From Alteromonas sp. M12 (lineage in GTDB: Bacteria; Pseudomonadota; Gammaproteobacteria; Enterobacterales; Alteromonadaceae): 64,000 nucleotides of DNA. The notes beneath the pieces were generated by a model. That model saw only the letters and a list, made by a program, of their open reading frames with translations. It did no database searches and was not told where the DNA came from. Shown one piece after another: positions 3,447 to 17,679 of this stretch (positions are counted from its first letter, which is position 1; each line of letters opens with the position of its first letter). The DNA lies in NCBI RefSeq assembly GCF_037478005.1, contig NZ_CP144164.1, positions 2,852,001 to 2,916,000 of the forward strand, written 5' to 3'. The position numbers were made by a program, and so were the translations under genes.

Positions 3447-3508
3447 AGGGCGTTTACTCTCACGCCCTGCCCTTTCAATATAAAAAAGGATACCAAAAGG
3501 TATCCTTT
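3447..3508. terminator. Bidirectional terminator between usp and the phosphatase gene
   Basis: Two stem-loops separate convergent genes. AGGGCG/CGCCCT is at 3447-3468. AAAGGATACC (3485-3494) pairs perfectly with GGTATCCTTT (3499-3508) across an AAAA loop. The second has A-rich and T-rich flanks that would serve both directions. Confidence 0.75.
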
Positions 3509-3516
3509 CCACTAGA

Positions 3517-4893
3517 TTATTTGTGTTCAAGTAATGAAAAAACCGTATTCGCAATATCAGTATTGTTGTTTAGCCCTACAAACGATTCACTGTGGCTACC
3601 AAACGCGAATACTGGAACATCTACGGCTGTATGAGCGCCTGTCGTCCAACCGGTGAGAGTTCTTGCATCAATAATGTGTTTAATATTGACGTAAAGCGCT
3701 TTTTTAACCGCATCAGCGGATACATCTGCGTAGGGATTACCCTCGCTGGATAACGGCTGATTATCTTCACCGATGTTTTTGCTGCTTTTTAACAAGGCAA
3801 GTTCAGATTCTGTCAAAGTAAAATTGAGCAAATCAGAAGTTGACTGTTGAGTAATATCAGTTTGTAACAACTGCTCAGCAATGTAACTTGGAGAATGCTT
3901 CATTGTACGTAAAACTTCAGGTTTCCATTCATACTTTCCATTAGCACCTAATGTCATACCACCAGTACTGTGATCAGCAGTTACCACCACCAAGGTATCA
4001 GGATGCTGAGCTACATACTCTTCAAGCATTTCTAATGTATTGGCGAGATCTTGCATTTCACCCATGGCAGCGGCTATATCATTGCTGTGCCCACCCCAAT
4101 CAACTTGACTCGCTTCTATCAACATAAAAAATCCGTTATCATTTTCTAGCTGCTCCAAGGCTGTCGATGTCATGGTTTTCAAACGATTAGCATCAGTGTC
4201 ATCTAAGGCCCAGGGTAAGCCAACATCAGCAAACAAGCCCAAAAGCGGTTTATCTTTTGCAACTTTGTTTAGGGCTGCATAGTCATCAACATATTGATAA
4301 CCCAGTTCCGTAAACTCGCTGACTAAGTCTCTATCATCACGCAAAAAGAATTTCCAGCCACCACCGAGTACAACATCATACATTTGGTAATTATCTACGT
4401 AACTATCAGCTATTTCATCGTAATTACCACGAGCTTCATTATGGGACATAAAGCTGGCAGGAGTGGCATGATTAATTTGGCTGGTGACGACGACTCCAGT
4501 TTTCTTTCCCAAACGTTTGGATACTTCTAAAACCGTGGTTACCGGTTGCTTGTTCACATCCATAGCAATGGCACCGTTGTAGGTTTTCACCCCAGCTGAC
4601 AACGCTGTTGCACCGGCTGCAGAGTCTGTCACGTATCCGGAAATAGGAGCCGGATACGTACTACTCATTCCCACCAAAGTGCGGTCAAAAACTGTTTGCT
4701 CAATTTCTGCTGTATTGGGGTCATCGTGAAAATATCGATACGCACTAATATATGCGGGGCCCATGCCATCACCCACAACCATAATGATATTTTTTGGTTT
4801 TTCAGGTACCACAATGGTTTGATTTGTCTGTTGTTGATCATTGCAGCCAAAAAGCATTAGCGACAATGAGAGCAATCCTATTTTACATTTCAT
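3517..4893 (-). CDS. Alkaline phosphatase (PhoA superfamily), predicted lipoprotein
   Basis: The protein has 458 residues. It starts with a lipoprotein signal peptide with lipobox LFGC (Cys17), so it is exported and lipid-anchored. The alkaline phosphatase core is clear: metal-binding GDGMG (Asp42), nucleophile Ser91 in TDSAAGATA, VVTADHSTGG and the C-terminal TTGAHTAVDV metal site. The family hydrolyses phosphomonoesters with Zn2+/Mg2+. It lies 39 bp downstream of nagP on the same strand with no obvious terminator between, so it is probably the last gene of the GlcNAc operon. That position suggests phosphate removal from imported or secreted sugar phosphates, not only phosphate scavenging. 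I saw no Pho box. Confidence 0.9.
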   Translation of the reverse strand: MKCKIGLLSLSLMLFGCNDQQQTNQTIVVPEKPKNIIMVVGDGMGPAYISAYRYFHDDPNTAEIEQTVFDRTLVGMSSTYPAPISGYVTDSAAGATALSAGVKTYNGAIAMDVNKQPVTTVLEVSKRLGKKTGVVVTSQINHATPASFMSHNEARGNYDEIADSYVDNYQMYDVVLGGGWKFFLRDDRDLVSEFTELGYQYVDDYAALNKVAKDKPLLGLFADVGLPWALDDTDANRLKTMTSTALEQLENDNGFFMLIEASQVDWGGHSNDIAAAMGEMQDLANTLEMLEEYVAQHPDTLVVVTADHSTGGMTLGANGKYEWKPEVLRTMKHSPSYIAEQLLQTDITQQSTSDLLNFTLTESELALLKSSKNIGEDNQPLSSEGNPYADVSADAVKKALYVNIKHIIDARTLTGWTTGAHTAVDVPVFAFGSHSESFVGLNNNTDIANTVFSLLEHK

Positions 4894-4932
4894 ACTGAGC
4901 CTATTTTTTAATGATAGTTAAGGTTTAACGTG

Positions 4933-6246
4933 CTACTTCCATGAGCGGATAGCGTGTCCACGAATCGCGTAAAAGAAAATATATAAATAACATGGCAAAC
5001 CTATCCAGTAAGCAGACTGTAGATCGCCTATTTCGTGGGAGATTTTGCCAAATAACAAAGGTAAAATTGCACCACCAGAGATACCCATAATCAGTAGAGC
5101 TGAGCCTTGCGCCGAGTAGTTCCCGAGTCCTTTTAATGCTAGAGGCCATACAGATGGCCACACTAACGCGTGAGCCAGCCCCATTAACGCCACAAACGTA
5201 ATAGTGTTAGGAATTACCGGAATACCTGTCCATCCCCACAATACATCTGCAATACTGGTGGATTGTGTAGAAGACAAGACGATACCCAAAATACACAAAC
5301 AGCCAGCAATCCCTGAGCCGAGTAAAGCGCGCTCTTGGGAGATAAAGCGCGGAATACAGCTAACACCGATTAAATAACCGAATACCATAAAGACCATAGT
5401 GAATGAGGTTAAAGCAGCAAAGTTGCTTACACCCAATGAGGAACCATAGAGGCCAATCGTATCTGCGGCAATCACCTCTACACCTACGTAGAAAAATAAC
5501 GCAATTGCACCCAACACTGTGTGTGGGAAATGAAATATGGATGATTTACTCACGCTTTCTTCTGTTTCAGTATTGCTTGATGAAATTTCAGGCAATGAAG
5601 AAAATTTAACCAGAGCGATTAATATTGTGAGTGCAATTGCCATTAAAACATATGGCACGATTAAGTTATGTGATAATTCCATTAGGCGCTGATCTTTGGC
5701 TACCTCTGACAATCCACTAAGCGCTTGTTCTGAAAAGTCTCCCATGTCAGACAATATCAAAGAGGTAAACAGAATTGGCACCAATACACCCGCACTTTTG
5801 TTTATCAGTCCCATGATGCTAATGCGCATAGCTGCACTTTCAACAGGTCCTAAATAAACTATATAAGGGTTAGATGCGGTTTGTAATATCGTTAACCCCG
5901 CAGCTAACACAAACAAAGCGACTAAGAAAAAAGCATAATTTGCAGTAATAGCGGCTGGTATATGTAACAGTGCGCCAACAGCCATGATCCCAAGCCCTAA
6001 CGCCATGCCGTTTCGATAACCGGTTTTTTTAAGAATAATGGACATCGGCAAGGCCATCACTGTGTACGCAATATAAAATGAAAAGGTCACGAACAAAGCT
6101 TCAAACTCATTTAATTCACATACTAATTGAAGAAATGGAATCAATGAGCCATTGAGCCAAGTGACGAAACCAAAAATAAAAAATAAGATGCCAACAACGA
6201 TCATTGGAACAAGGGTACTGGTTTTATTTGTTGTTATAGTTTGCAT
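4933..6246 (-). CDS. nagP: N-acetylglucosamine MFS permease, FucP family (NagP-like)
   Basis: This is a 437-residue inner-membrane transporter with about 12 hydrophobic segments. FucP-family features include FFIFGFVTWLNGSLIPFLQ near the N-terminus and QTASNPYIVYLG in the middle. The open frame extends to 6297, but those codons overlap nagA. The ATG at 6246 follows nagA's stop by 4 bp with GAGGT 8 bases upstream, so it is the better start (6261 is an alternative). NagP in marine Alteromonadales is the non-PTS GlcNAc importer, and adjacent nagA, nagB-II and nagK support that substrate over fucose or glucose. Confidence 0.85.
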   Translation of the reverse strand: MQTITTNKTSTLVPMIVVGILFFIFGFVTWLNGSLIPFLQLVCELNEFEALFVTFSFYIAYTVMALPMSIILKKTGYRNGMALGLGIMAVGALLHIPAAITANYAFFLVALFVLAAGLTILQTASNPYIVYLGPVESAAMRISIMGLINKSAGVLVPILFTSLILSDMGDFSEQALSGLSEVAKDQRLMELSHNLIVPYVLMAIALTILIALVKFSSLPEISSSNTETEESVSKSSIFHFPHTVLGAIALFFYVGVEVIAADTIGLYGSSLGVSNFAALTSFTMVFMVFGYLIGVSCIPRFISQERALLGSGIAGCLCILGIVLSSTQSTSIADVLWGWTGIPVIPNTITFVALMGLAHALVWPSVWPLALKGLGNYSAQGSALLIMGISGGAILPLLFGKISHEIGDLQSAYWIGLPCYLYIFFYAIRGHAIRSWK

Positions 6247-6250
6247 ATTG

Positions 6251-7420
6251 TTAGACCTCATTAGCCATTGTTTCTTGAAAAAACACCTTATTTCCATTTA
6301 CCCAAGTTGACTGCACAACGAGTTTCTCATCCAATTGAATGAAATTGGCGATTTTACCTGGCGCAAGCTGTACTTTCGGATTGGTTTGCATAGGTGAGCC
6401 TGACAAATAATCTTTAGGATATTGGCTTGCTAAGCGAATGGACTCATCCACAGAGATACCCAAATTAAAATGACAGTATCTTACCGATGATGCCATATCG
6501 ATGGCAGCACCAGCTAACTCTCCGGTAGTAGATATTAATCGTCCATCTCTTACCGTTACTTGCCGGTCGAAAAAATCAAATTCCGTCGCATCTGAACCAA
6601 CTGGAGGCATCGCATCGGTTACCAAAAAGATTCCACCTTTAGGTTTCGTCTTGAGCGCTAATTGAATATTTAAATCATCCACGTGATGTCCATCTACTAT
6701 TAGTCCGCAACGCGTCGTTTCAGATGTTAAAGCAACGCCTGTTACACCAGGCTCTCTAGCAGAAATAGGCGACATGGCATTAAACAAATGGGTAAATCCA
6801 GAGGCACCACATTGTATTGCTTTGCTTGTGGTAATTCCGTCAGCGTTACTATGCCCGATACAAACTTTCACACCTAAGCTGACTAACTCTTTAATTTGCC
6901 CCTCAGGTACCACTTCTGGCGCTAAGGTCACAACTATATTACCTAAATCCTGACGTTTAAACAGAGTCCACTCTTGTTCTGTAATCGGACGAATATGTTG
7001 TTGACTATGGGCACCTTTTTTAATCGTGGAAATATGTGGACCTTCAAAATGAATTCCCAAGATACCTGGCTCATTTTGACGAATCCCTTGCGCAACTGCG
7101 TCAGCCGCCCTATTCATTACGTCGATATCATCAGTAATTACCGTGGGTAATAGTCCTGTTGTACCGTAACGGGCGTGAGCGGCGAAGATGGTCTTTAACG
7201 AGTCTAGGGTTGGCTGAGCATTGAATAATACCCCGCCTCCGCCGTTTACTTGTAAATCTACAAATCCTGGGGCAACTAGCCCGCTCAGCACCGTATCAAC
7301 CTGTGAAATATCCTGATCGATTGCAATGATTTCTTCGCCTTCAATCACAAGCACTTGATCAGTATGATATGCCTGTCCATCAAATAATCTTTGGGCATGT
7401 AATCTCATTTGTTGCGTCAT
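6251..7420 (-). CDS. nagA: N-acetylglucosamine-6-phosphate deacetylase
   Basis: The enzyme removes acetate from GlcNAc-6-P to give GlcN-6-P in the cytoplasm. It has 389 residues, the normal family length. Motifs: VAPGFVDLQVNG, metal ligand Glu in HFEGPH, IGHSNADG, THLFNAMSP, and the catalytic Asp in LVTDAMPPVG. Its start overlaps the nagB-II stop by 4 bp, indicating coupled translation. It is followed after 4 bp by nagP. Confidence 0.95.
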   Translation of the reverse strand: MTQQMRLHAQRLFDGQAYHTDQVLVIEGEEIIAIDQDISQVDTVLSGLVAPGFVDLQVNGGGGVLFNAQPTLDSLKTIFAAHARYGTTGLLPTVITDDIDVMNRAADAVAQGIRQNEPGILGIHFEGPHISTIKKGAHSQQHIRPITEQEWTLFKRQDLGNIVVTLAPEVVPEGQIKELVSLGVKVCIGHSNADGITTSKAIQCGASGFTHLFNAMSPISAREPGVTGVALTSETTRCGLIVDGHHVDDLNIQLALKTKPKGGIFLVTDAMPPVGSDATEFDFFDRQVTVRDGRLISTTGELAGAAIDMASSVRYCHFNLGISVDESIRLASQYPKDYLSGSPMQTNPKVQLAPGKIANFIQLDEKLVVQSTWVNGNKVFFQETMANEV

Positions 7421-8415
7421 AATGTTTTGGTTACTTTATTCAAGCCCAAAGGCACGTCAGGGTTTAGGCCGCGATGGGTTGAAAGCTTAGCAACATCAAT
7501 ATAGAAACGTTGTAAGACTAACAGAGGAGCTATTCGCGGATGCGCAGCTAGTTTACTCTGGTGTAAATGCAGAACCTGGGCCCCTCGTCGTTTAACTTCG
7601 TTTATTTGTTCAATATGAGAAGCTTCACTTTCGTCCAGAACCAGACAGTCTAATATTGCTAGGCCTTGCTCTATCAAAGTAATGGGGCCATGCAAAAATT
7701 CAGCGCTACTGAAAGCCTCAGCATGAATACTGCAGACTTCTTTTAGTTTTAACGCTATTTCTTTAGAAACCGCAAAACCCAATCCCCGTCCCAATACAAC
7801 TAGGTTATTGACGTTATCAACATCTGTGGGCGCTAATTGTGAAGGTGAATCAATGATTGCTTCAAGTAAACTAGGCAATTGATTCAGGGAATCGAGTAAA
7901 CCTTGATTGTTTGTCCACGTTGCGACTAAATGCAGAAGAGCGGAAAGAGTTGAGAGGTAGCTCTTAGTTGCCGCAACAGACTCTTCTTTGCCCGCGTTTA
8001 AAGGCAAAACATCATCTACAATATCTTTCAATGGCGAGCTTTCATCATTCACCAAAGCAATGCAATATGCTCCGCCTTTTTTAGCCATCTTTGCCTGAGC
8101 TAATATATCGGGACTGCGTCCAGACTGCGAAATAACAATCACTAAAGCATTATCCAAGACCAGTTGTTTGTTGTACACACTTGAAACTGAAGGTGCAGCA
8201 GCAAAGGTCGGAATTTGAGCTTCAATTTCAATTAAATATTTAGCAAACACACCAGCATGATCTGACGACCCTCGACCAATAATCATCACCATTTTAGGTT
8301 TGAATTGGTGCAACTTATTGGCAATGTTTGTGACTGTTTTTTGATTTTTCTGAATTTGTTCGCGAATAACTTTAGGGGTTTGTCGCGCTTCTTTTTCCAT
8401 TATTGTTTGTGTCAT
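7417..8415 (-). CDS. nagB: Glucosamine-6-phosphate deaminase, SIS-domain type (NagB-II)
   Basis: The 332-residue protein has two SIS sugar-isomerase domains. The first has IIGRGSSDHAG and VISQSGRSPD; the second has VLGRGLGFAVSKE and AEFLHGPITLIEQG. It resembles the isomerase half of GlmS without the glutaminase domain. In Shewanella- and Alteromonas-type GlcNAc pathways this class (NagB-II) replaces classical NagB and converts GlcN-6-P to fructose-6-P and ammonia. Its position between nagK and nagA supports this over a generic SIS protein. Confidence 0.88.
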   Translation of the reverse strand: MTQTIMEKEARQTPKVIREQIQKNQKTVTNIANKLHQFKPKMVMIIGRGSSDHAGVFAKYLIEIEAQIPTFAAAPSVSSVYNKQLVLDNALVIVISQSGRSPDILAQAKMAKKGGAYCIALVNDESSPLKDIVDDVLPLNAGKEESVAATKSYLSTLSALLHLVATWTNNQGLLDSLNQLPSLLEAIIDSPSQLAPTDVDNVNNLVVLGRGLGFAVSKEIALKLKEVCSIHAEAFSSAEFLHGPITLIEQGLAILDCLVLDESEASHIEQINEVKRRGAQVLHLHQSKLAAHPRIAPLLVLQRFYIDVAKLSTHRGLNPDVPLGLNKVTKTL

Positions 8416-8428
8416 GTAAAACTCTTAT

Positions 8429-9379
8429 TTATGTAGCTATTGAAATTGATTTATCTGATGGGAAGCCATTCATATTTTGTCTAGCAAAATAGACAGCCCC
8501 TACTTCCGGTGGCGACAAGGGAGCAGATAGTGCATTTTGGATTGCTTTGTTTAGCCATGGGAACAATGAGGTTCCTAAACCACCAATAAGGGATATTCTG
8601 GGAGGATGGGTATTCATTAACTTTTCAGCCATGCCGTTAATGTAACCTGCTCCCTCTTGAACAATGGAAATTGCTATTTCATCTTTTGAACTTGCCGCAA
8701 TAAAAACGCAATTAGCCAATTGAGCAAAAAATGATGCTGGTTTACCTGCAACTTTTTCTGTCAGCTCTTCGCTGTTTTTCACATTAAGTTGTTCCAGCAT
8801 AACGTTAACGAGTTTGGTTGGATGGCCTAATCCATCAAGTGACAGTAAAACCTGTTCTGCCGCCCTTAAACCAAACCAAGCCCCACTGCCTTTGTCTCCT
8901 TGGGGAAATCCATGCCCGCCTAATATCGTTGACTTTTGATTCACATAGGAAAACCCACACGATCCCGTGCCTGTCACTATGACAGCGCCATCCCCCCCGT
9001 TATGAGCACCTAAACTGGCAATCAATAAATCCGTGGCTAAAAATATTTGTCTGAACGGATGCTGCCATTTCATAATGGTGTCGTAATGCTTAGGTAGGTT
9101 TACGCCTGCAAGACCTAACCCTACCGGAATTTTAGTCAATTCACTTGGACTGATACCCGCTTGTTTTAATGCCATGAGCGCACTGTTTTTAATAGAGTCT
9201 TTAGCCTGCTCGATACCATAAACAGGGTTTCCAGGCCCTGCAGTACCTTCACCTAAAACCACATTATCTGGTGACATCAAAACGGCTTTGCATTTAGTAC
9301 CACCACCATCAATTCCTAAAATGAGGGATTCACCTGGTGTTGAGTTCTTTTTCAATGTATTTGTTATTCCCGTTACCAC
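8429..9379 (-). CDS. nagK: N-acetylglucosamine kinase, BadF/BadG type
   Basis: The 316-residue ASKHA-fold kinase has the phosphate-1 motif LGIDGGGTKCKAVL near residue 20, the GTGSCGF adenosine-side motif and GDKGSGAWFGLRA. It phosphorylates incoming GlcNAc at C6, as required when uptake uses a permease and not a PTS. The start is GTG at 9379 with an AGGT-like ribosome site. It lies 13 bp before nagB-II and 11 bp after the glycosidase gene, so it is part of the same transcript. Confidence 0.88.
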   Translation of the reverse strand: MVTGITNTLKKNSTPGESLILGIDGGGTKCKAVLMSPDNVVLGEGTAGPGNPVYGIEQAKDSIKNSALMALKQAGISPSELTKIPVGLGLAGVNLPKHYDTIMKWQHPFRQIFLATDLLIASLGAHNGGDGAVIVTGTGSCGFSYVNQKSTILGGHGFPQGDKGSGAWFGLRAAEQVLLSLDGLGHPTKLVNVMLEQLNVKNSEELTEKVAGKPASFFAQLANCVFIAASSKDEIAISIVQEGAGYINGMAEKLMNTHPPRISLIGGLGTSLFPWLNKAIQNALSAPLSPPEVGAVYFARQNMNGFPSDKSISIAT

Positions 9380-9390
9380 TTCTAAACCTT

Positions 9391-11013
9391 TTATTTCGCC
9401 GTAAATAGCAACGCTTCAGCGACTGCCCTTTCCCCATTACTATCCGATGGTTTTCCTGTTATCTGGCCATTAACAACCATTACACTAGAACCGCCACCAT
9501 CAAGATTGATCGCCTTTTGAACACCTAACTCCAACATAAGCTCTGACATTTCAGTAATAGATGCCCCTATGCTTTTAAACGGATCTCTTCCATAAACCAC
9601 TACTACATATACATCGCCTGTATTAGTAACGCCCACCGCTGTACGAGGATGGCGCTTTAAAACCCAATTTTGGTAAAAGTTGATTCGATTGTTCTCTGGC
9701 AACGCTTCAGAAATATCGTCTCGATGATCAATAGCAGCGGTACCACCTTTAACAGGGGTCACTCCCCACCCTTGCGAGCGTCGTTGAGAAATAGGTTGTT
9801 TGCCATCAACTAATAGTGTTGGTCCACCATTAATCACATACATACCTTTGCGCAAAGTCAGTTCACCTGAATCACTAGTTACCTGCTGATTAATAACTAC
9901 CTTTGTTTTTGTTGATACAAACTTTTCGAGTTGTGAGACTGAATCACCAGAAGCAACAACAAGACGATGGCCAACAGGTAAAGAAGTTGACATATCCAGA
10001 CGATTAAAATAAACAGAATTGTTTTCATCCACGAAAAAGTGAAACTCGCTGTTGCTTAACACCGGATGAAGATTGCCAAAATAATGATTGTAAACAATGA
10101 TTTCATTAGATTTGTGACAAACAAAATCGTGTATTGCCACAACTTTAGGATGACCGAAACCACAGTTAAATATTTTACCCGATAGACGATTAATGCCATC
10201 TACATAAAAGTTTTTATCCTCAACAGTTAAACTAATTTGAGATTGCACATTATTTAAAATTTCAACCGATAATGAGGGTTGATTGTTGATTAATAAAGCA
10301 GGTCTGCCGGCCACAGCTTCACTAACTAATATGCCGTCAATTACTGCTAAGCCTGCCACATCGCCAATGATCCCTTGGCTTGAATTAAATGCAAAAAAAC
10401 CACCATTGACGGCAGCTACCGCTAGATTTTTTTTAGCTATTTCCGATACTTTTTCAACACCTGTTATTTGTTGCTTAGCTAAAGACGACGTCAGAGTGCC
10501 TGTGTATTGAGAAGGCACTAATTTAAGAATACTGATTTCTTGTTTACCCATACCGCCACTTCGTTGGGTACTGTGTGAAGAACGCATTTGTAAACCAATT
10601 GCCGCAAGTTGTTGTTGCATAATTTGTGCATCAGCTAAGGTATTAAACTGACCAATTGTAACTAACTTTCCTAAATCACTGCCATCAGGTGCCTGTTCAA
10701 CCAGATCAATCATTTTAGGTTTTAAATTGTGACTTCTTGAATTTATCGTTAGTCTCGATACATGTTTGTTCAATGCATCTACTAAGGCGTTAGCGTCGGT
10801 TACAGACATCACTGAACTGGTCAATTCAAAATATCCAGAAAGCTCACCTCTATCCACCTTAAAGTAGCTTAGTCCAGGCGAAATGACTGTTTGAGTTGCA
10901 TCAGTAAATGCTACTGGCAAGCCAGTTTTAGTCTGCACTGGAGTGGAACACGCATTTACCAATAATGCGCAAACAATGACAAAGCATCTTATTGAAAAAC
11001 CGAACACTGGCAT
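9391..11013 (-). CDS. NagPA-type phosphodiester glycosidase lipoprotein with SPOR-like N-terminal region
   Basis: The 540-residue protein has a lipoprotein signal (LLVNAC, Cys22), SPOR-like repeats around residues 65-150 and a C-terminal phosphodiester glycosidase domain (DUF2233/NAGPA family). Family signatures are NGGFF at 203-207, YVINGGPTLLVDG and NLDGGGSS at 503-510. The animal enzyme NAGPA removes GlcNAc from GlcNAc-1-phospho-6-mannose; bacterial members are less studied and linked to exopolysaccharides or cell-wall glycans. It sits directly before nagK, so GlcNAc release in the periplasm or at the outer membrane is a reasonable inference. SPOR regions often bind denuded peptidoglycan. 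Substrate is unproven. Confidence 0.8.
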   Translation of the reverse strand: MPVFGFSIRCFVIVCALLVNACSTPVQTKTGLPVAFTDATQTVISPGLSYFKVDRGELSGYFELTSSVMSVTDANALVDALNKHVSRLTINSRSHNLKPKMIDLVEQAPDGSDLGKLVTIGQFNTLADAQIMQQQLAAIGLQMRSSHSTQRSGGMGKQEISILKLVPSQYTGTLTSSLAKQQITGVEKVSEIAKKNLAVAAVNGGFFAFNSSQGIIGDVAGLAVIDGILVSEAVAGRPALLINNQPSLSVEILNNVQSQISLTVEDKNFYVDGINRLSGKIFNCGFGHPKVVAIHDFVCHKSNEIIVYNHYFGNLHPVLSNSEFHFFVDENNSVYFNRLDMSTSLPVGHRLVVASGDSVSQLEKFVSTKTKVVINQQVTSDSGELTLRKGMYVINGGPTLLVDGKQPISQRRSQGWGVTPVKGGTAAIDHRDDISEALPENNRINFYQNWVLKRHPRTAVGVTNTGDVYVVVVYGRDPFKSIGASITEMSELMLELGVQKAINLDGGGSSVMVVNGQITGKPSDSNGERAVAEALLFTAK

Positions 11014-11074
11014 GATAATTCACTCGGTAAGAAATATTGGCTTAGAGTTGATAGTTTAGATTGGTAGGCTTAAA

Positions 11075-11100
11075 TAAGGAGCATCTTATGATGCTCCTTA
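11075..11100 (-). terminator. Perfect hairpin between TonB receptor and glycosidase genes
   Basis: Ten perfectly paired bases, TAAGGAGCAT (11075-11084) and ATGCTCCTTA (11091-11100), flank a 6-base loop 15 bases past the receptor stop. On the minus strand it is followed by TTTAAGCC, so it may be a leaky terminator or an mRNA-stabilising 3' end that reduces expression of the downstream enzyme genes relative to the receptor. Confidence 0.6.
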
Positions 11101-11115
11101 ACCTAATTTTCGTTA

Positions 11116-13839
11116 TTAAAACGAGTATCTGGCACCAATAACAAATCTTCTATCGATTTGTGCAAGATCGTACGGGGTATTTTGAACCGAACGATTCACT
11201 TCTTGCTCAGTTAACAGATTTAACCCTTGCACTTGTATTTGCAGTGCATCAGTCACATTGTAACTGGCGGAAAAGTCAAGCTGTCCATACTCTTCTTGCC
11301 ATTGTGGAATACCCGCGGTTGAAGCAAATTCCACCAAATATTCATCTCGCCATGTATAAGACAATCTCGCATTAAAGCTAGGGACATCATAGTACAAGGC
11401 CAAGTTGTAACTACTTTCTGACAATCCAGGTAAACCAGAATTACGCACGTCACCTTCGTCTGAATATTGCGCGGCACTATCAATCATTGTGTAGTTTGCC
11501 AACAGACCAAAATCGTCTAAGGATTCGCTGATGAATCCGAGTCTAGATTGATAAGCTAACTCAATACCGGTAATGGTTGCACCAACGCCATTTGCAGGTT
11601 GGGTAAAGATAATAGGTCCACTTACAATTACACCATCACTTTGTCTAGGAAACTCTCTAATTTCAGTCGTAGATGAGGTATCAATGAAACCATCTAAATC
11701 TTTATAGAAAATATTGATCGCAGCTACAGCTTCACTAGTAAAGTACCACTCAAAACCTATGTCATAGTTATCTGCTGTAAACGGTTGCAGATCAGGGTTA
11801 CCACGTGAACCAAGACCGCCGCCTTCATCGATGCCGTTAAAGCTTTCAAACGCAGCTAATTCACCTAGCGCAGGTCGTGTTAAGCTCTTAAAGTAAGCCG
11901 CACGTACCACCATATCGTCATTAAGAGCATAACGTACGTTCATGTTCGGTAAAATCTCTTGATAATCGCTTTTCAAGGTAACTGGGCTGAACGCATTTAC
12001 ATCAGAAGAATCCGTAGTCACTTGCGAATCAATGGTTTGAATGGTTCGAACAAAACGTAAGCCAGTACTTAAGGTAACACTTTCACTTACTTCTATATTT
12101 GCTTGAGCATAGGCTGCAATGGTTTGTTCTTGCAATTCAAAGCTGTTGATTAGTTCAAAAGGTTCGTTTACATCTTCGTATAAACCATCGATGGGCGAAC
12201 CATCTGCATTAAAGAAAGTTGATAGAATTTGCGCAGGATCACCACCAATTAACGTCGATGGCGCAAAGCCTGCACCATCTACATTAAAACGGTCTAGTGG
12301 AGTATATACATCCGCTAAAGTAGGTAAATCAGTGCGACGATTTAATGGGGTTACCCCATCAGCTAAGAAGCTTTCTGCCCTGATATCAGATCTGGTTTGA
12401 TGTTGTTCCAATTCTCTGTCGGTAAATCGCAAACCAAAGTCAACTTTCATCAAGTCGCCGTTATCGTATTCAAAATCCAACTTCAAGGTATTGTTTGAGT
12501 CCTTGGTTTCAAGAGGACGACGAATGAACACGTTAACAACAAATTCTTCAGGGTTGCTTGCAAAATCAGTATCAGGGGTAGACCACTCTAAGTAGTTGTC
12601 GCGCATAATGTAACTTACATCAGCTGGATAGAAATTGCCGTCTTCTTCCATTCTGCGAAATGAAAACAAGTCATTACTGTTGATCTTTTCGCGACTAAAG
12701 TGGCCAATATAGGGTGAAAATTTCAAGCTATCAGAGATGTGCCAATCTGCACTTAAAGTGAACTGGTTTACCTCTTCATCAATCGCTTCTTGTCTTGCAC
12801 CAACACGTTGTTGCACACCAGTTAATGTGGCTTGAGTTGCTATACCGTTTTCAATCACAGTGTTACTAACAGCGGTAATATTACTCTCAGAGGGTGCATC
12901 TAAAATTGTTTCTACACGATCAGCATCAATCTTGCCAACAAGTGCCCGTGCTTTAATATCAAGATCATCATTAGGGCGCCACTGCAGACCTAATACAGCG
13001 CCGAGGGTTTCACGTTCCTCTGAAGTATAACCAAAACTCTCAATACGAGGATACAAAGCATCAAGTTGCTCTTGGGTAGGGCCACCTTCTTCGCCCACGT
13101 CAGGTCCAGTCCAAACGGCTGATAAAGGACTATGGCTACTGCCACGTACTTCATTATTCTGCATATCAGTATCTGAATACACCAATGCGGCATTGATACC
13201 AAAAGTGTCATCCCAGTTTTGATTAAATACTACTGACGCTTTTGGGCTGTTTGTGCCAGTATTATCACTGTAGTTATTGTAAACAGAAACATTGAGCACT
13301 TGATCTTTGGTTGCTAGCGGATCTGGCGTATACAGAGAAACGCTTCCAGCAATGCCGCCTTCCACTTGATCTGCAGTCACTGACTTGGATATTTCTACAC
13401 TGTTAAATAATTCAGCTGGAAAAATTTCGAATGAGAAGCCACGAGTACCATCACTCCCCCCCGCTAACATTCCATTAACTTCAGTAGAGGTGAATTCAGG
13501 ACCAAGACCACGTAAGTTAATTGCAGTCCCCTCACCTGTAGGGTTTCGATTTAAGGTGACACCCGGTACACGTTGAATCGCTTCAGACAAGTTAGCTTCT
13601 GGAAACTTACCTATATCTTCGGCGGTAATGACATCGACCACTTTATTTGCAAATCGTTTTTGATTAAGAGATTTTAAAAGGCTACCTCTTACACCTTTAA
13701 TCGTAATGGCTTCAACGTCACCTTCACTTGACTCTTGGGCATAAAGGTTAGCAGACGCGCTACTTAACAATCCTAAGATTACCGCAGTCGAGACCTTGCT
13801 GAATTTACTTGCTCTGGGAGTAACATTTGTTCTGCTCAT
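11116..13839 (-). CDS. TonB-dependent outer-membrane receptor of the GlcNAc locus
   Basis: The 907-residue protein has a cleavable signal ending near NLYAQ, then a plug domain (ITIKGVRGSLLKSLNQKR, VVDVITAEDIGKFPEANLSEA, RVPGVTLNRNPTGEG) and a 22-strand-type barrel ending in the terminal aromatic residue of GARYSF. The 'GVRGSL..S...KR' plug start is typical of the large carbohydrate-type receptors of Alteromonadales and Xanthomonadales. It would carry GlcNAc-containing oligosaccharides across the outer membrane. Transcription diverges from the ROK regulator, and palindromic operator-like sites flank its predicted promoter. Confidence 0.9.
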   Translation of the reverse strand: MSRTNVTPRASKFSKVSTAVILGLLSSASANLYAQESSEGDVEAITIKGVRGSLLKSLNQKRFANKVVDVITAEDIGKFPEANLSEAIQRVPGVTLNRNPTGEGTAINLRGLGPEFTSTEVNGMLAGGSDGTRGFSFEIFPAELFNSVEISKSVTADQVEGGIAGSVSLYTPDPLATKDQVLNVSVYNNYSDNTGTNSPKASVVFNQNWDDTFGINAALVYSDTDMQNNEVRGSSHSPLSAVWTGPDVGEEGGPTQEQLDALYPRIESFGYTSEERETLGAVLGLQWRPNDDLDIKARALVGKIDADRVETILDAPSESNITAVSNTVIENGIATQATLTGVQQRVGARQEAIDEEVNQFTLSADWHISDSLKFSPYIGHFSREKINSNDLFSFRRMEEDGNFYPADVSYIMRDNYLEWSTPDTDFASNPEEFVVNVFIRRPLETKDSNNTLKLDFEYDNGDLMKVDFGLRFTDRELEQHQTRSDIRAESFLADGVTPLNRRTDLPTLADVYTPLDRFNVDGAGFAPSTLIGGDPAQILSTFFNADGSPIDGLYEDVNEPFELINSFELQEQTIAAYAQANIEVSESVTLSTGLRFVRTIQTIDSQVTTDSSDVNAFSPVTLKSDYQEILPNMNVRYALNDDMVVRAAYFKSLTRPALGELAAFESFNGIDEGGGLGSRGNPDLQPFTADNYDIGFEWYFTSEAVAAINIFYKDLDGFIDTSSTTEIREFPRQSDGVIVSGPIIFTQPANGVGATITGIELAYQSRLGFISESLDDFGLLANYTMIDSAAQYSDEGDVRNSGLPGLSESSYNLALYYDVPSFNARLSYTWRDEYLVEFASTAGIPQWQEEYGQLDFSASYNVTDALQIQVQGLNLLTEQEVNRSVQNTPYDLAQIDRRFVIGARYSF

Positions 13840-13876
13840 TAATTTTCCTCGATGTTGACAGTGTGTTTTTATTATT

Positions 13877-13948
13877 AATTACCACTCTGGTATTTAAACT
13901 AGCCACGCAAGAATAAATTGTCAACCATTAATTACCACGTCAATACTT
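13877..13948 (-). promoter_or_regulatory. Promoter of the TonB receptor gene flanked by two palindromic operators
   Basis: On the minus strand a perfect -35 TTGACA (13919-13924) lies 17 bp from a weak -10 TAGTTT (13896-13901). Operator-like site 1, AATTACCA-CTC-TGGTATTT (13877-13895), begins right after the -10. Site 2, AATTACCA-CGT-CAATACTT (13930-13948), lies just upstream of the -35, with a well-conserved left half and a weak right half. Sites on both sides of a promoter fit repression by a dimer, probably with looping or cooperation. Confidence 0.6.
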
Positions 13949-14047
13949 AATATTTCAAAAATAATTTTGGATTTACAAAAATAATAATAATATTCAAAAG
14001 GTTATAACTAATTTGGAGTTTTGTATTATTTACCTGCCAATTAACTT

Positions 14048-14066
14048 AATTATCAAGGTGGTAATT
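14048..14066. promoter_or_regulatory. Third operator-like palindrome, before the ROK regulator
   Basis: AATTATCA-AGG-TGGTAATT has the same 8-3-8 layout as the two sites near the receptor promoter, with a single mismatch between its arms. It is 86 bp upstream of the regulator start, so it may mediate autoregulation. The rest of the 312-bp divergent region (13840-14151) is AT-rich and shows nothing else clear. Confidence 0.55.
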
Positions 14067-14151
14067 AAGTTACCTAATTGTTATTCTATACAGTGGCTAG
14101 ATTTCTAATTGTTCTTGGTTTTCGTCATTTACTTCCTTCAAGGGGTTTACA

Positions 14152-15288
14152 TTGCAAACGCTACAGCAAATAACATCCATTTCGCACATCGAAAAACAGC
14201 TAAATAGTAGCCATAAAAAAGTAATTGAAAATATTCGTAGAAACCGCAAAGCAACTCGTGCGGAAATAGCCAAGGCAACGGGATTATCTAATCAAACTTT
14301 AACGAGACTGACTAAGCACTTAATATCCCTTGGCATAGTTGAAGAGCACTCAAAAATCGCTGGGCAGCGAGGACAACCAGCTACTTACTTGACGTTAATC
14401 CCCGGAGTTTTTGCTAGTGTTGGGGTGGTTTTCGAACACGATAGAGTGGTAGTTCTATTAGATGATCTCGACCGCACAAACATCGTTAGATTTTGTAAAG
14501 ATGGGACATTCTTATCGGCAGAACTAGCAATTAAAGCAGCCTTATCTATGCTCGACCAATTATTTTCAGAGTTAGATCCCTCAATTAATATTTTAGGGAT
14601 AGGTATATCTATTTCTGGATTTTTTACTAACGAAGAAGGCCGTATTTGTTCCCAACAAGATCCGCAAGGTTGGTCTGTTGTTAATTTTCAAGAAACCTTT
14701 GCAAAACGATACAAACAACACTGTTTTGTAGAAAATGACGGAAACGCTGCCTCTATTGGTTTTTCGTTAACTAAAAAAGGAGCTACGCTGCAAAGTTTCT
14801 ATCTCATGCTGTTTACTCTAGATATAGGTGGTGGTTTTGTTTTTGAAGGTGAGGTTGTCGATGGTGCTTTTGGAAATGCTGGCGAAATTTCTACCTTATT
14901 TAGTAGCGATAAATCGCAACTAAGGCCCAACTTGGGATCACTTTACAAACATTTGAGTGCTGTTTGGGGGGAAGAGGCCACTCCTGAGAAAATTCAGGCA
15001 GCGATTGCCAATCAAGACACTAACATCAAATCTTGGGTAACAGCATGTGTTGAAACTATGAAGTTCCCACTCAAAGCCATCCAAAGTCTACTTGATCCAG
15101 AAGCAATTGTTTTTACCGGCAGATTACCAATTGAGTTACAGAAATCGCTATCTGAAAAAGTCGTTGTTACTGGTGCTTCCTATGGAGATGTTTTCGCTCC
15201 AACTCCTAAAATCCATATAGCGGATGGTAACGATATTTTAGAAAAAGGGGTTACTGCAATCCCTGCATTTTATTTTTTTAAACGATAA
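14152..15288 (+). CDS. ROK-family transcriptional regulator (NagC/Mlc-like)
   Basis: The 378-residue protein has an N-terminal winged helix-turn-helix (TRAEIAKATGLSNQTLTRLTKHL, residues about 37-60) and a ROK sugar-kinase-like domain (VENDGNAASIG; FTLDIGGGFVFEGEVVDGAFGNAGE). The usual ROK zinc-motif cysteines are not visible, which some NagC-like proteins also lack. It starts at TTG, with AAGGGG upstream; no better in-frame ATG precedes the HTH. Being divergent from the GlcNAc receptor, it is the likely repressor of the locus, with GlcNAc-6-P or GlcNAc as inducer (inference). Confidence 0.82.
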   Translation: MQTLQQITSISHIEKQLNSSHKKVIENIRRNRKATRAEIAKATGLSNQTLTRLTKHLISLGIVEEHSKIAGQRGQPATYLTLIPGVFASVGVVFEHDRVVVLLDDLDRTNIVRFCKDGTFLSAELAIKAALSMLDQLFSELDPSINILGIGISISGFFTNEEGRICSQQDPQGWSVVNFQETFAKRYKQHCFVENDGNAASIGFSLTKKGATLQSFYLMLFTLDIGGGFVFEGEVVDGAFGNAGEISTLFSSDKSQLRPNLGSLYKHLSAVWGEEATPEKIQAAIANQDTNIKSWVTACVETMKFPLKAIQSLLDPEAIVFTGRLPIELQKSLSEKVVVTGASYGDVFAPTPKIHIADGNDILEKGVTAIPAFYFFKR

Positions 15289-15451
15289 CAAGATTTTTTG
15301 TTTATCTTTTTGATAGATTGCAATAGCCACTGATATTTAAAACAATAATTAGATTTATTCGTGACATTTCGCGTTATTTTTTATAACAATTTTACTTTTT
15401 CCAGTCTATAGTTTTAACTTAGTCAGACAAGCATTTAAAGGTACAGTTATT

Positions 15452-15892
15452 TTGCAAGAACATGGTGAGCATGTCATAGGAAAATGTGGCCAAGTGTTAC
15501 TTTTTAGTGGGCGAGGCCCATGGAATGATGAAGCATTAGAGGGTTCACTGCAGCAAACGATTGACAATTTCCACACGGTTGATAAAAACCGTCCATGGGC
15601 GCAATTAAGTTGTTTATATGGAGAAAGTTTATTTCCACCTTCAACTTATAACTTGTTTAAAAAGCAGACCTTTTTACGCAAGCAGCTGGGGATTACAGCG
15701 GTGGCAGTAGTGATTCTAGATTCTGATATCAGTAATACAATCAAGCAACAATTATCTACTGGTTATCAAGCTGCCGAGGTTAATTATCAGTTTTTCTCTT
15801 CACTGGTAGATGCGATCCATTGGCTTGAAAAACATGGTGTTGATATAGATGCTAACGCAATTACCCAATTCTTTAATCAAAACCGATTATAA
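15452..15892 (+). CDS. Conserved-looking hypothetical protein, possible SpoIIAA/STAS-like fold
   Basis: The 146-residue soluble protein starts at TTG behind AAAGG. The pattern 'GRGPWNDEALEGSLQQ ... NRPWAQLSCLYGESLFPPS ... ITAVAVVILDSD' resembles short SpoIIAA-like (anti-sigma-antagonist fold) proteins of marine gammaproteobacteria, but no catalytic residues are apparent. It has no signal peptide or membrane segment. It stands alone between the ROK regulator and the hipBA operators. I do not recognise a function. Confidence 0.6.
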   Translation: MQEHGEHVIGKCGQVLLFSGRGPWNDEALEGSLQQTIDNFHTVDKNRPWAQLSCLYGESLFPPSTYNLFKKQTFLRKQLGITAVAVVILDSDISNTIKQQLSTGYQAAEVNYQFFSSLVDAIHWLEKHGVDIDANAITQFFNQNRL

Positions 15893-15904
15893 CCCGCCAA
15901 GAAT

Positions 15905-16000
15905 AAAGTCCCAAAAATAGGACTTTAACAAACATAATTCATGTTAAGTCCCAAAATAAGCACACTAAGATAGATGTTGATAAAGTCATTAAATTGGGAC
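15905..16000 (+). promoter_or_regulatory. Three GTCC-N8-GGAC operator-like sites before hipBA
   Basis: Site 1 is AAAGTCC-N8-GGACTTT at 15905-15926. Site 2 is GTCC-N8-GCAC at 15948-15963. Site 3 is GTCA-N8-GGAC at 15985-16000. The geometry equals the E. coli HipB operator TATCC-N8-GGATA. A possible promoter, TTGATA (15977-15982) with 17 bp to CATTAT (16000-16005), overlaps site 3, so binding there would block RNA polymerase. Autorepression by HipB or HipAB is inferred. Confidence 0.65.
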
Positions 16001-16051: not shown

Positions 16052-16366
16052 ATGCAAACAAAAGAGATTGTAGCCGATTTAGGTGAACGTTTGAAACAAG
16101 CCCGCCTGAATGCTGATTTAACGCAACAAGACATCGCAGATAAAACAGGCCTTTCCAGAAAGGTGGTTATGCGCGCGGAAAAAGGTCATGCTCAATTAGA
16201 AACAGTGGTAGCTATTTTAGTCGCTTTGGGATTGAGCAAACAACTGGATCTGTTTATTCCTATTCCAACCGAGTCCCCCATTCAGTTAGCCAAACGGCAA
16301 GGCCAACAAAGACAACGAGCATCAGGTAATAATCCAGCAAGTAAAAAAGGTGATCCGGCATGGTAA
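16052..16366 (+). CDS. hipB: HipB-like antitoxin, XRE-family helix-turn-helix
   Basis: The 104-residue DNA-binding protein has a helix-turn-helix at about residues 20-55 (LTQQDIADKTGLSRKVVMRAEKG). It then has a Gln/Arg-rich basic tail that could contact the toxin or DNA. Its 3' end overlaps the hipA start by 7 bp, the usual antitoxin-toxin coupling. It is expected to neutralise HipA and to repress the pair through the GTCC-N8-GGAC sites. Confidence 0.85.
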   Translation: MQTKEIVADLGERLKQARLNADLTQQDIADKTGLSRKVVMRAEKGHAQLETVVAILVALGLSKQLDLFIPIPTESPIQLAKRQGQQRQRASGNNPASKKGDPAW

Positions 16367-17679
16367 AAGAGGTAGTCATAGTGAATTACCAGGATCACCA
16401 AGTTGGTGCGGTTAGCTATGATCCTGATAAACAGCTGGGCGCGTTCGAGTACACTCCAGCATTCATCAAAACCGGTATTCAATTGTCACCGTTAAAAATG
16501 CCTTTATCAAAACAGATTTATACTTTCCCTGAAACCGACTTTGCCGCATTTAAAGGCCTCCCCGGATTGGTTGCTGACTCCCTACCCGATGATTTTGGTA
16601 ATGCCGTCATCAATGCATGGGTTGCTTCGCAGGGGAAATCAGCAAAGGATATATCCCCTCTTCAACGCTTAAAATACGCAGGTACTCGCGGCATGGGCGC
16701 ACTAACTTTTGCCCCAGCGACCCGGCATAAAAATCTTAACTCATCACAGCAACTTGAGGTTGAAAACCTCGTGGAAGTTGCCCAAGACATTGTCAATCAA
16801 AGGTCCAAATTTAATGTATCTTTGAATCAACAAGGTTATGAGGACAAAGAAGCGATGATGGCGCTAATGTCGGTTGGTATGAGTGCTGGTGGCGCAAGGC
16901 CGAAAGCGGTTTTAGCATTTAATTCAGATTTTACCCAAGTGCGTTCTGGACAAACTAATGCGCCAGACGGGTTCAGCCATTATTTAATGAAATTTGATGG
17001 GGTAAGTGAACACAATAAGAACCAGGAAACATTTGGTGATCCCACCGGTTATGGGGCAATGGAATACGTTTACTATTTAATGGCCACGGCCAGTCAAATA
17101 GATATGATGCCCTGTTATTTGCTCAACGAAGGTAAACGACGACACTTTATCACCCAAAGATTTGATCGTATCGGCAATGACAAAGTCCACGTCCAAACAT
17201 TAAATGGACTTGCTCACGTTAGTTTTAAGCAAGTGGGAATCTATTCTTATGCAGAGTTATTTGACGTTGCCCGAAGCTTAAAGTTATCTGCTAAAGAAGC
17301 CGAACAAATATTCAGAAGAATGGTATTCAATGTGGTGGCCAAAAATCACGATGATCATGCAAAAAATATTTCGTTTATGTTTGATCAACAGCAACAATGG
17401 ACGTTAGCCCCTGCCTATGACTTAGCGTACAGTTACAAACCAGGCAGTAGATGGGTCAACAGTCATTGGATGTCTATAAATGGCAAGCGTGATAACTTTG
17501 ATAGAAAGGATTTATATTCCTTTTCTCAGTTAAGTCCAATTTTTAATAAACGAAAAATTGATCGCATCATAGATGAGGTCGTAGAACAGGTGTCACAATG
17601 GCAAACGTTAGCCAAAGAACACCATGTTCCCAAGACACTTATCGAAGAAGTTCAATCTAATCTCAGGTTGACGTTATAA
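16360..17679 (+). CDS. hipA: HipA-like serine/threonine kinase toxin
   Basis: The 439-residue protein has the HipA N-terminal domain (to about residue 120) and the kinase C-domain. The loop SVGMSAGGARPKA (171-183) matches the region of the regulatory phospho-serine. NHDDHAKN (329-336) is the HipA catalytic loop, and APAYDL (350-355) takes the DFG-like metal-binding position. E. coli HipA phosphorylates GltX and causes persistence; the target here is unknown. The N-terminal domain is fused, so this is a two-gene HipBA and not a split HipBST system. All catalytic motifs look intact. Confidence 0.87.
   Translation: MVKEVVIVNYQDHQVGAVSYDPDKQLGAFEYTPAFIKTGIQLSPLKMPLSKQIYTFPETDFAAFKGLPGLVADSLPDDFGNAVINAWVASQGKSAKDISPLQRLKYAGTRGMGALTFAPATRHKNLNSSQQLEVENLVEVAQDIVNQRSKFNVSLNQQGYEDKEAMMALMSVGMSAGGARPKAVLAFNSDFTQVRSGQTNAPDGFSHYLMKFDGVSEHNKNQETFGDPTGYGAMEYVYYLMATASQIDMMPCYLLNEGKRRHFITQRFDRIGNDKVHVQTLNGLAHVSFKQVGIYSYAELFDVARSLKLSAKEAEQIFRRMVFNVVAKNHDDHAKNISFMFDQQQQWTLAPAYDLAYSYKPGSRWVNSHWMSINGKRDNFDRKDLYSFSQLSPIFNKRKIDRIIDEVVEQVSQWQTLAKEHHVPKTLIEEVQSNLRLTL

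Follow-up and report, generated by a model that had tools for sequence, protein, structure and literature searches.

Why would a bacterium keep a NAGPA-domain phosphodiester glycosidase and an alkaline phosphatase among genes for the catabolism of N-acetylglucosamine (GlcNAc)? The locus that raises this question lies in a 64,000-nt stretch (hereafter, the window) of Alteromonas sp. M12, whose genome (G000) consists of a single contig of 5.01 Mb; all coordinates are positions in the window unless stated. A gene for a TonB-dependent receptor is followed there by those for the glycosidase, NagK, NagB-II, NagA, a NagP-like transporter and the phosphatase, with a divergent gene for a ROK-family regulator. 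The known NAGPA reaction releases GlcNAc from a GlcNAc-1-P-sugar and leaves a phosphomonoester. We consider it fairly probable, judging from sequence comparisons, that the locus is a local, ROK-controlled regulon for glycans that hold GlcNAc by an alpha-1-phosphodiester. This reading draws its computed support from the genes present and their recurring linkage, from a palindrome footprint and a 3' hairpin, and from fold and family assignments.

The gene positions and strands of the initial annotation were all borne out by the open reading frames of the window and by Pfam and NCBIfam profiles (Table 1). The glycosidase scored 113.4 bits against the NAGPA / DUF2233 family (PF09992), for which the curated cut-off is 25, with conserved core motifs; those designated NGGFF, RTAxG, NLDGGGS and PSD recur in a vertebrate mannose-6-phosphate uncovering enzyme (NAGPA, UCE). 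The nearest solved relative is 6ozd (BPSS2145 putative exported protein), a full-length match in a profile comparison (1.4e-88). This entry was deposited without a named function, as were the DUF2233 structures 3ohg and 5h3k, which have the same catalytic fold. A SPOR-like domain occupies the N-terminus of the glycosidase (about residues 61–151), with scores of 16.7 bits (residues 40–155) and 14.1 bits (whole protein) that do not reach the SPOR (PF05036) cut-off of 21.

Likewise, the phosphatase belongs to the PhoA family (PF00245, 319.9 bits versus a cut-off of 24.4, residues 34–455), and keeps the aligned motifs, including the DSA motif and the metal-ligand residues. Its nearest match in the PDB is the cold-active alkaline phosphatase 3a52 (8.9e-130). 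Putative lipoboxes, previously noted on both glycosidase and phosphatase, are visible by eye (LLVNAC and LMLFGC); they are not universal, the cysteine being missing from the NAGPA protein of genome G167 and from the phosphatase of G307. NagK, NagB-II and NagA exceed their NCBIfam cut-offs. The start of nagP at 6246 is likelier than that at 6297, because the latter overlaps nagA. With this start, the receptor and glycosidase genes are separated by 102 bases, and the successive gaps that follow are 11, 13, −4, 4 and 39 bases; the last, between nagP and the phosphatase gene, is exactly as first annotated and contains no hairpin of six pairs.

We examined the conservation of the cluster in a sample of 395 genomes of the family, counting relatives of the NAGPA protein at E ≤ 1e-25 and laying out the clusters by tblastn with the window proteins. 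The protein was present in eight genomes: G000; G190, from the same species (Aliiglaciecola lipolytica D2R05, locus L006), with a 99% identical protein; G003, from the same genus; G206 and G318 (Paraglaciecola arctica, loci L008 and L009) and G307, from one other genus; and G167 and G091, from two more. The TonB receptor and the ROK gene accompany it in all eight, and nagK joins these three in seven, being absent from G091. The gene order of the window is repeated in full in G190, G003 and G307, and a PhoA-type phosphatase follows nagP in six of the eight genomes (G000, G190, G003, G206, G318 and G307). The two P. arctica clusters lack nagA and nagB, and keep the glycosidase, nagK, nagP and the phosphatase. 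In G167 the genes run from ROK to nagP as in the window, and the phosphatase gene is missing from the cluster. In G091 (L054, 6072–15294) a symporter, ROK, NAGPA, receptor and phosphatase gene share one neighbourhood, in the order ROK-NAGPA-receptor; the phosphatase, after the receptor, is of the PhoD family (1.4e-98) and unrelated to PhoA, and the gene beside ROK encodes a sodium:solute symporter. The initial annotation had proposed to check whether glycosidase, phosphatase and nag genes occur together, and the outcome was positive: the cluster contains PhoA in six genomes, PhoD in one and neither in one. The possibility that the phosphatase is the last gene by chance is disfavoured by this recurrence and by the phosphatase's own tree group (see below); the arrangement is more than chance and recurs across species. 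The phosphodiester-GlcNAc locus as first proposed is partly supported: the linkage of glycosidase and phosphatase recurs, and the gene set splits in G091, G167 and G315, indicating that the parts of the cluster can separate.

At an identity of at least 74% the receptor was found in seven of the 395 genomes, with a NAGPA gene adjoining in all seven, and at E ≤ 1e-170 in 12. Receptor relatives of 42–43% identity in G095, G155 and G027 had no NAGPA, phosphatase or nag match nearby; the surroundings of a fourth, in G127, were not read. Identity of the ROK protein to that of the window was 100% in L006, 63–88% in the clusters of G003, G206, G318, G307 and G167, and 36% in G091.

Beyond the family, a NAGPA profile (E ≤ 1e-30) retrieved the own genome alone among 350 genomes of the class and 299 of the phylum; of 22 genomes from the G307 genus it matched three, all of them already known. 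No more can be read from these counts than that the full-length NAGPA form is rare in the sample. A plasmid collection contained four NAGPA records at E ≤ 1e-5, two from Vibrio nigripulchritudo (38% identity) and one each from Streptomyces and Nonomuraea, and none of this cluster's nag genes lay near in the neighbourhoods of one Vibrio and the Streptomyces record. The Vibrio protein (L010, 15010–16584; 38% identical) is encoded on a conjugative plasmid. Beside a short NAGPA protein in G012, nothing matched the remaining proteins of the cluster. In G167 (L078, 13584–15077), a metallophosphatase-like protein adjoins a TonB-receptor-like one, both recognized by eye; the pair lies about 8.6 kb from the nagP end of the PhoA-less cluster, in a separate neighbourhood.

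In a phylogeny of PhoA-type phosphatases, those of G000, G003, G206, G318 and G307 grouped with one of G315 (support 98/97). The tree comprised 21 rows from 26 chosen loci, after L034, L038, L040, L041 and L042 were dropped by a motif filter, and was built without L021 (G190), L037, L039, L046, L048 and L049. The nag-linked group stands apart from the second PhoA of G000. This second protein (G000:C1:1331182-1332390; L055, 5613–6905) is 57% identical to that of the window and has no visible lipobox; the 13 kb read around its gene contained nothing that matched the remaining proteins of the cluster. Among six phosphatase loci without NAGPA (L056–L061), tblastn located a nag gene beside the phosphatase in one, L056 (G315, 9045–15975), where nagK directly precedes a phosphatase from the nag-linked group of the tree, together with a ROK gene (66% identity) and an unlike TonB receptor (25%). 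Nag-type phosphatases and NAGPA proteins have six genomes in common, from sets of seven and eight in 395 (3.8e-11), a figure to be taken as a guide only, since it ignores relatedness, was set up post hoc, and counts as nag-type only the 21-row tree plus G190.

The intergenic region between the ROK and receptor genes suggests how the cluster is regulated. In an alignment of six clusters, we identified a palindrome, TTAAnTACCnnnnnGGTAnTTAA, that occurs three times in this gap, and searched for it in five genomes (G000, G003, G167, G206 and G307) with up to two mismatches and a reversed control. All sites with 0–1 mismatches lay within the gap in G000 (2/2), G003 (2/2), G167 (3/3) and G206 (3/3). 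Outside the gap there were four sites per genome, every one with two mismatches, and the reversed control gave 4–13. Because the sites with 0–1 mismatches are confined to the gap in four genomes, the ROK protein apparently acts on a single target, and it seems to serve this cluster alone. From its position, we infer that the palindrome is a candidate ROK binding site. The ROK protein is far under the NagC cut-off (NF047937; 47.4 versus 650 bits). The TTGAC of the receptor promoter is kept in five of the six aligned clusters. This promoter is absent from the automatic scan list, its second hexamer failing the scan rule, and the automatic promoter-like sites are no commoner than in shuffles (40 versus 42.9).

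Control by phosphate seems less likely than control by the ROK protein at its one target. Scanning 400 bases upstream of the phosphatase gene for a Pho box yielded a best score of 9/14 in the window and 9–10 in G003, G206 and G307, compared with a background of 8–11 in 300 random stretches. No box exceeded this background; the test is weak, in that the second phosphatase gene, the intended positive control, also scored 9.

Two hairpin regions flank parts of the operon. The gap between the receptor and glycosidase genes carries a stem of 9–15 pairs in G000, G003, G206 and G318, which shuffles reached in 0–11 of 300 cases, whereas in G307 and G167 the stems have only seven pairs, as expected by chance; this hairpin may reduce expression of the genes that come after that of the receptor. 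At the 3' end of the phosphatase gene, none of 300 shuffles of the stretch reached the 12-pair stem, and a clear hairpin with T follows the gene in G000, in G206 and in the G315 cluster.

These elements would fit together as follows. The TonB receptor would import pieces of phosphoglycan into the periplasm, where the NAGPA lipoprotein, held near peptidoglycan by its SPOR-like domain, would cut the GlcNAc-phosphate bond and free GlcNAc. The lipoprotein alkaline phosphatase would then strip the phosphomonoester so exposed, perhaps uncovering the next residue; this order of events follows from the known NAGPA reaction. The NagP-like transporter would take GlcNAc inward, and NagK, NagA and NagB-II would convert it to fructose-6-phosphate with release of acetate and ammonia. 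The inducer would be an amino sugar, probably GlcNAc or its 6-phosphate, which would relieve ROK repression at the operators of the receptor promoter.

A bolder version, which we put forward tentatively and consider rather unlikely, is that glycosidase and phosphatase alternate from the chain end, digesting poly(GlcNAc-1-phosphate) wholly to GlcNAc and phosphate. The former would free a GlcNAc and the latter would remove the phosphate remaining on the GlcNAc behind it, so that no more than two periplasmic hydrolases would be needed; the locus might then be the catabolic counterpart of Stealth-type capsules or teichoic-like wall polymers. This would account for the presence of GlcNAc genes alone beside the enzyme pair. 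A wall polymer of Staphylococcus lactis is reportedly a GlcNAc-alpha-1-phosphate polymer, going by the title of one study. The meningococcal X capsule is a polymer of this kind, linked by a Stealth-family enzyme (PMC12348895), and Dictyostelium proteins carry GlcNAc-P-Ser (PMC6994554).

The NAGPA enzyme might instead cut another linkage, for instance in an alpha-GlcNAc glycoside without phosphate or in a polymer attached to peptidoglycan, with the phosphatase as a passenger that scavenges phosphate. We regard this as possible and rather doubtful. It accords with the SPOR-like domain, which points to peptidoglycan, with the nearest solved relative being deposited as a putative exported protein, with a report that NAGPA domains occur in fusions with cell-surface modules and with catalytic domains of other kinds, and with the G167 cluster, which manages without a phosphatase; in addition, the literature searched yielded no assay of any bacterial protein with a NAGPA domain. 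Yet the catalytic core motifs match an uncovering enzyme, and six of eight genomes have the phosphatase in the cluster, with its own tree group, an unrelated phosphatase being found in a seventh. Another option, decidedly unlikely in our view, is that sugar phosphates such as GlcNAc-6-phosphate or GlcNAc-1-phosphate are the main substrates of the phosphatase, which would yield GlcNAc from them outside the inner membrane, the glycosidase having a separate substrate within the one regulon. The G315 cluster, where nagK adjoins a same-group phosphatase without a NAGPA gene, speaks for such a role, whereas the joint presence of both genes in six of eight NAGPA genomes, and the greater simplicity of a sequential reaction, speak for the phosphodiester reading; the two overlap in part and their odds are not exclusive.

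The remaining alternative is an ordinary cluster for GlcNAc or chitin oligosaccharides with two passenger genes. In the Shewanella study (PMC2996990), nagK, nagB-II, nagA, a NagP-like transporter and an outer-membrane receptor make up the Nag core, so that the enzyme set and transporter type are those of the window cluster, and the pathway is described as wide in Alteromonadales and linked with chitin. Published Nag regulons can extend to chitin genes, and many genomes have expanded ones (PMC5343134 and PMC2996990). The Shewanella pathway is controlled by a LacI-family NagR, in contrast to the ROK regulator of the window with its apparently single target, which itself argues against an ordinary chitin regulon; the window also adds NAGPA and a phosphatase, and the word phosphatase is absent from the main text of the Shewanella paper (PMC2996990). 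The earlier statement that the cluster contains no chitinase or hexosaminidase held genome-wide for GH18 and GH20, the only two glycoside hydrolase (GH) families sought: their profiles had no match in the own genome at E ≤ 0.001 (GH3, GH19 and GH84 were not searched), whereas GH20 was found in 4 of 14 control genomes and GH18 in 6 of 14. An ordinary chitin locus is disfavoured by the lack of GH18 and GH20 matches. Moreover, the glycosidase is retained in clusters without nagA and nagB, and the receptor at the above identity occurs only with NAGPA (7/7). We therefore rate this alternative as highly improbable.

Returning to the phosphodiester reading, several observations weigh against it. The NagP-like transporter, despite being a best match, is under the curated cut-off (507.7 versus 625 bits), and the predicted structure of the glycosidase, which served fold matching only, is of low confidence (predicted local distance difference test, pLDDT, 55.7). 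The gene set is not constant: the G167 cluster has NAGPA and nag genes and no phosphatase; in G091 no nag gene was seen near NAGPA, so that the sugar freed there may not be GlcNAc; and no NAGPA, nagA, nagB or nagP was found by tblastn in the 19.5 kb read of the G315 cluster, which is perhaps a related cluster with another substrate. PhoA relatives are common, being present in 227 of the 395 family genomes at E ≤ 1e-120; most of them are not in the tree and their neighbours were not read. The routes to GlcNAc covered were GH18 and GH20, not GH3, GH19 or GH84. G307 has no palindrome site with 0–1 mismatches, its gap holding two with two mismatches, and the clear T-hairpin after the phosphatase gene was not seen in G003, G318 and G307. 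A single transcript for the whole cluster is putative, because the hairpin and the 102 bases part the receptor gene from that of the glycosidase.

The features of the locus are collected in Table 1. In its surroundings, a HipBA-like pair lies at 16052–17679, with a helix-turn-helix (HTH) gene and then one of the HipA family (HipA_C, 8.4e-50). A universal-stress-protein gene adjoins the cluster, preceded by ATP-synthase-like genes at 109–2344, namely one for a subunit of the alpha/beta family and then a gamma-like gene, the latter recognized by eye.

Table 1. Genes and putative regulatory features of the locus in the window.
Feature	Position	Strand	Basis or remark
ROK-family transcriptional regulator	14152..15288	+	Pfam ROK 9.9e-16 and HTH; divergent from operon
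TonB-dependent receptor, TonB-Xanth-Caul type	11116..13839	-	TIGR01782, 615.9 bits
NAGPA-domain phosphodiester glycosidase, predicted lipoprotein	9391..11013	-	Pfam NAGPA 1.8e-32
nagK, GlcNAc kinase	8429..9379	-	NF046058, 419.3 bits (cut-off 370)
nagB-II, glucosamine-6-phosphate deaminase	7417..8415	-	NF046059, 546.3 bits (cut-off 430)
nagA, GlcNAc-6-phosphate deacetylase	6251..7420	-	TIGR00221, 248.1 bits (cut-off 225.65)
NagP-like sugar transporter, major facilitator superfamily	4933..6297	-	NF046060 best match, 507.7 bits (cut-off 625)
PhoA-family alkaline phosphatase, predicted lipoprotein	3517..4893	-	PF00245 3.5e-95
Operator-like palindrome, site 1	13875..13897	.	Perfect; overlaps -10 box of receptor promoter
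Operator-like palindrome, site 2	13928..13950	.	2 mismatches; just upstream of -35 box
Operator-like palindrome, site 3, regulator side	14046..14068	.	1 mismatch
Promoter-like TTGACA-N17-TAGTTT of receptor operon	13896..13924	-	Found by eye
Terminator- or attenuator-like hairpin in the receptor–glycosidase gap	11075..11100	-	Stem above chance
Terminator-like hairpin directly after phosphatase gene	3483..3510	-	12 pairs with G-T; 3' arm ends in T
Second hairpin past phosphatase gene	3447-3468	.	In automatic hairpin list

We found no description, in the open-access literature, of a bacterial NAGPA enzyme in an operon for GlcNAc-phosphate utilization. The uncovering enzyme takes off a covering GlcNAc in the trans-Golgi network (PMC12024695). 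Unlike UCE, the window protein is bacterial, a predicted lipoprotein with a SPOR-like domain, and encoded in a putative catabolic operon with a phosphatase. The cluster phosphatases belong to the same catalytic families as the PhoA and PhoD of phosphate acquisition, whereas that of the window ends an amino-sugar operon with a ROK regulator and has a putative lipobox. The gene set is small and testable with synthetic substrates. The alternating version would, if true, assign a catabolic role to bacterial NAGPA domains. If the phosphodiester reading is true, a domain known chiefly for its part in the sorting of lysosomal enzymes would gain a role in nutrition. The locus would then provide an enzyme pair for dismantling GlcNAc-1-phosphate polymers and, for marine bacteria, a route to carbon, nitrogen and phosphate from phosphoglycans.

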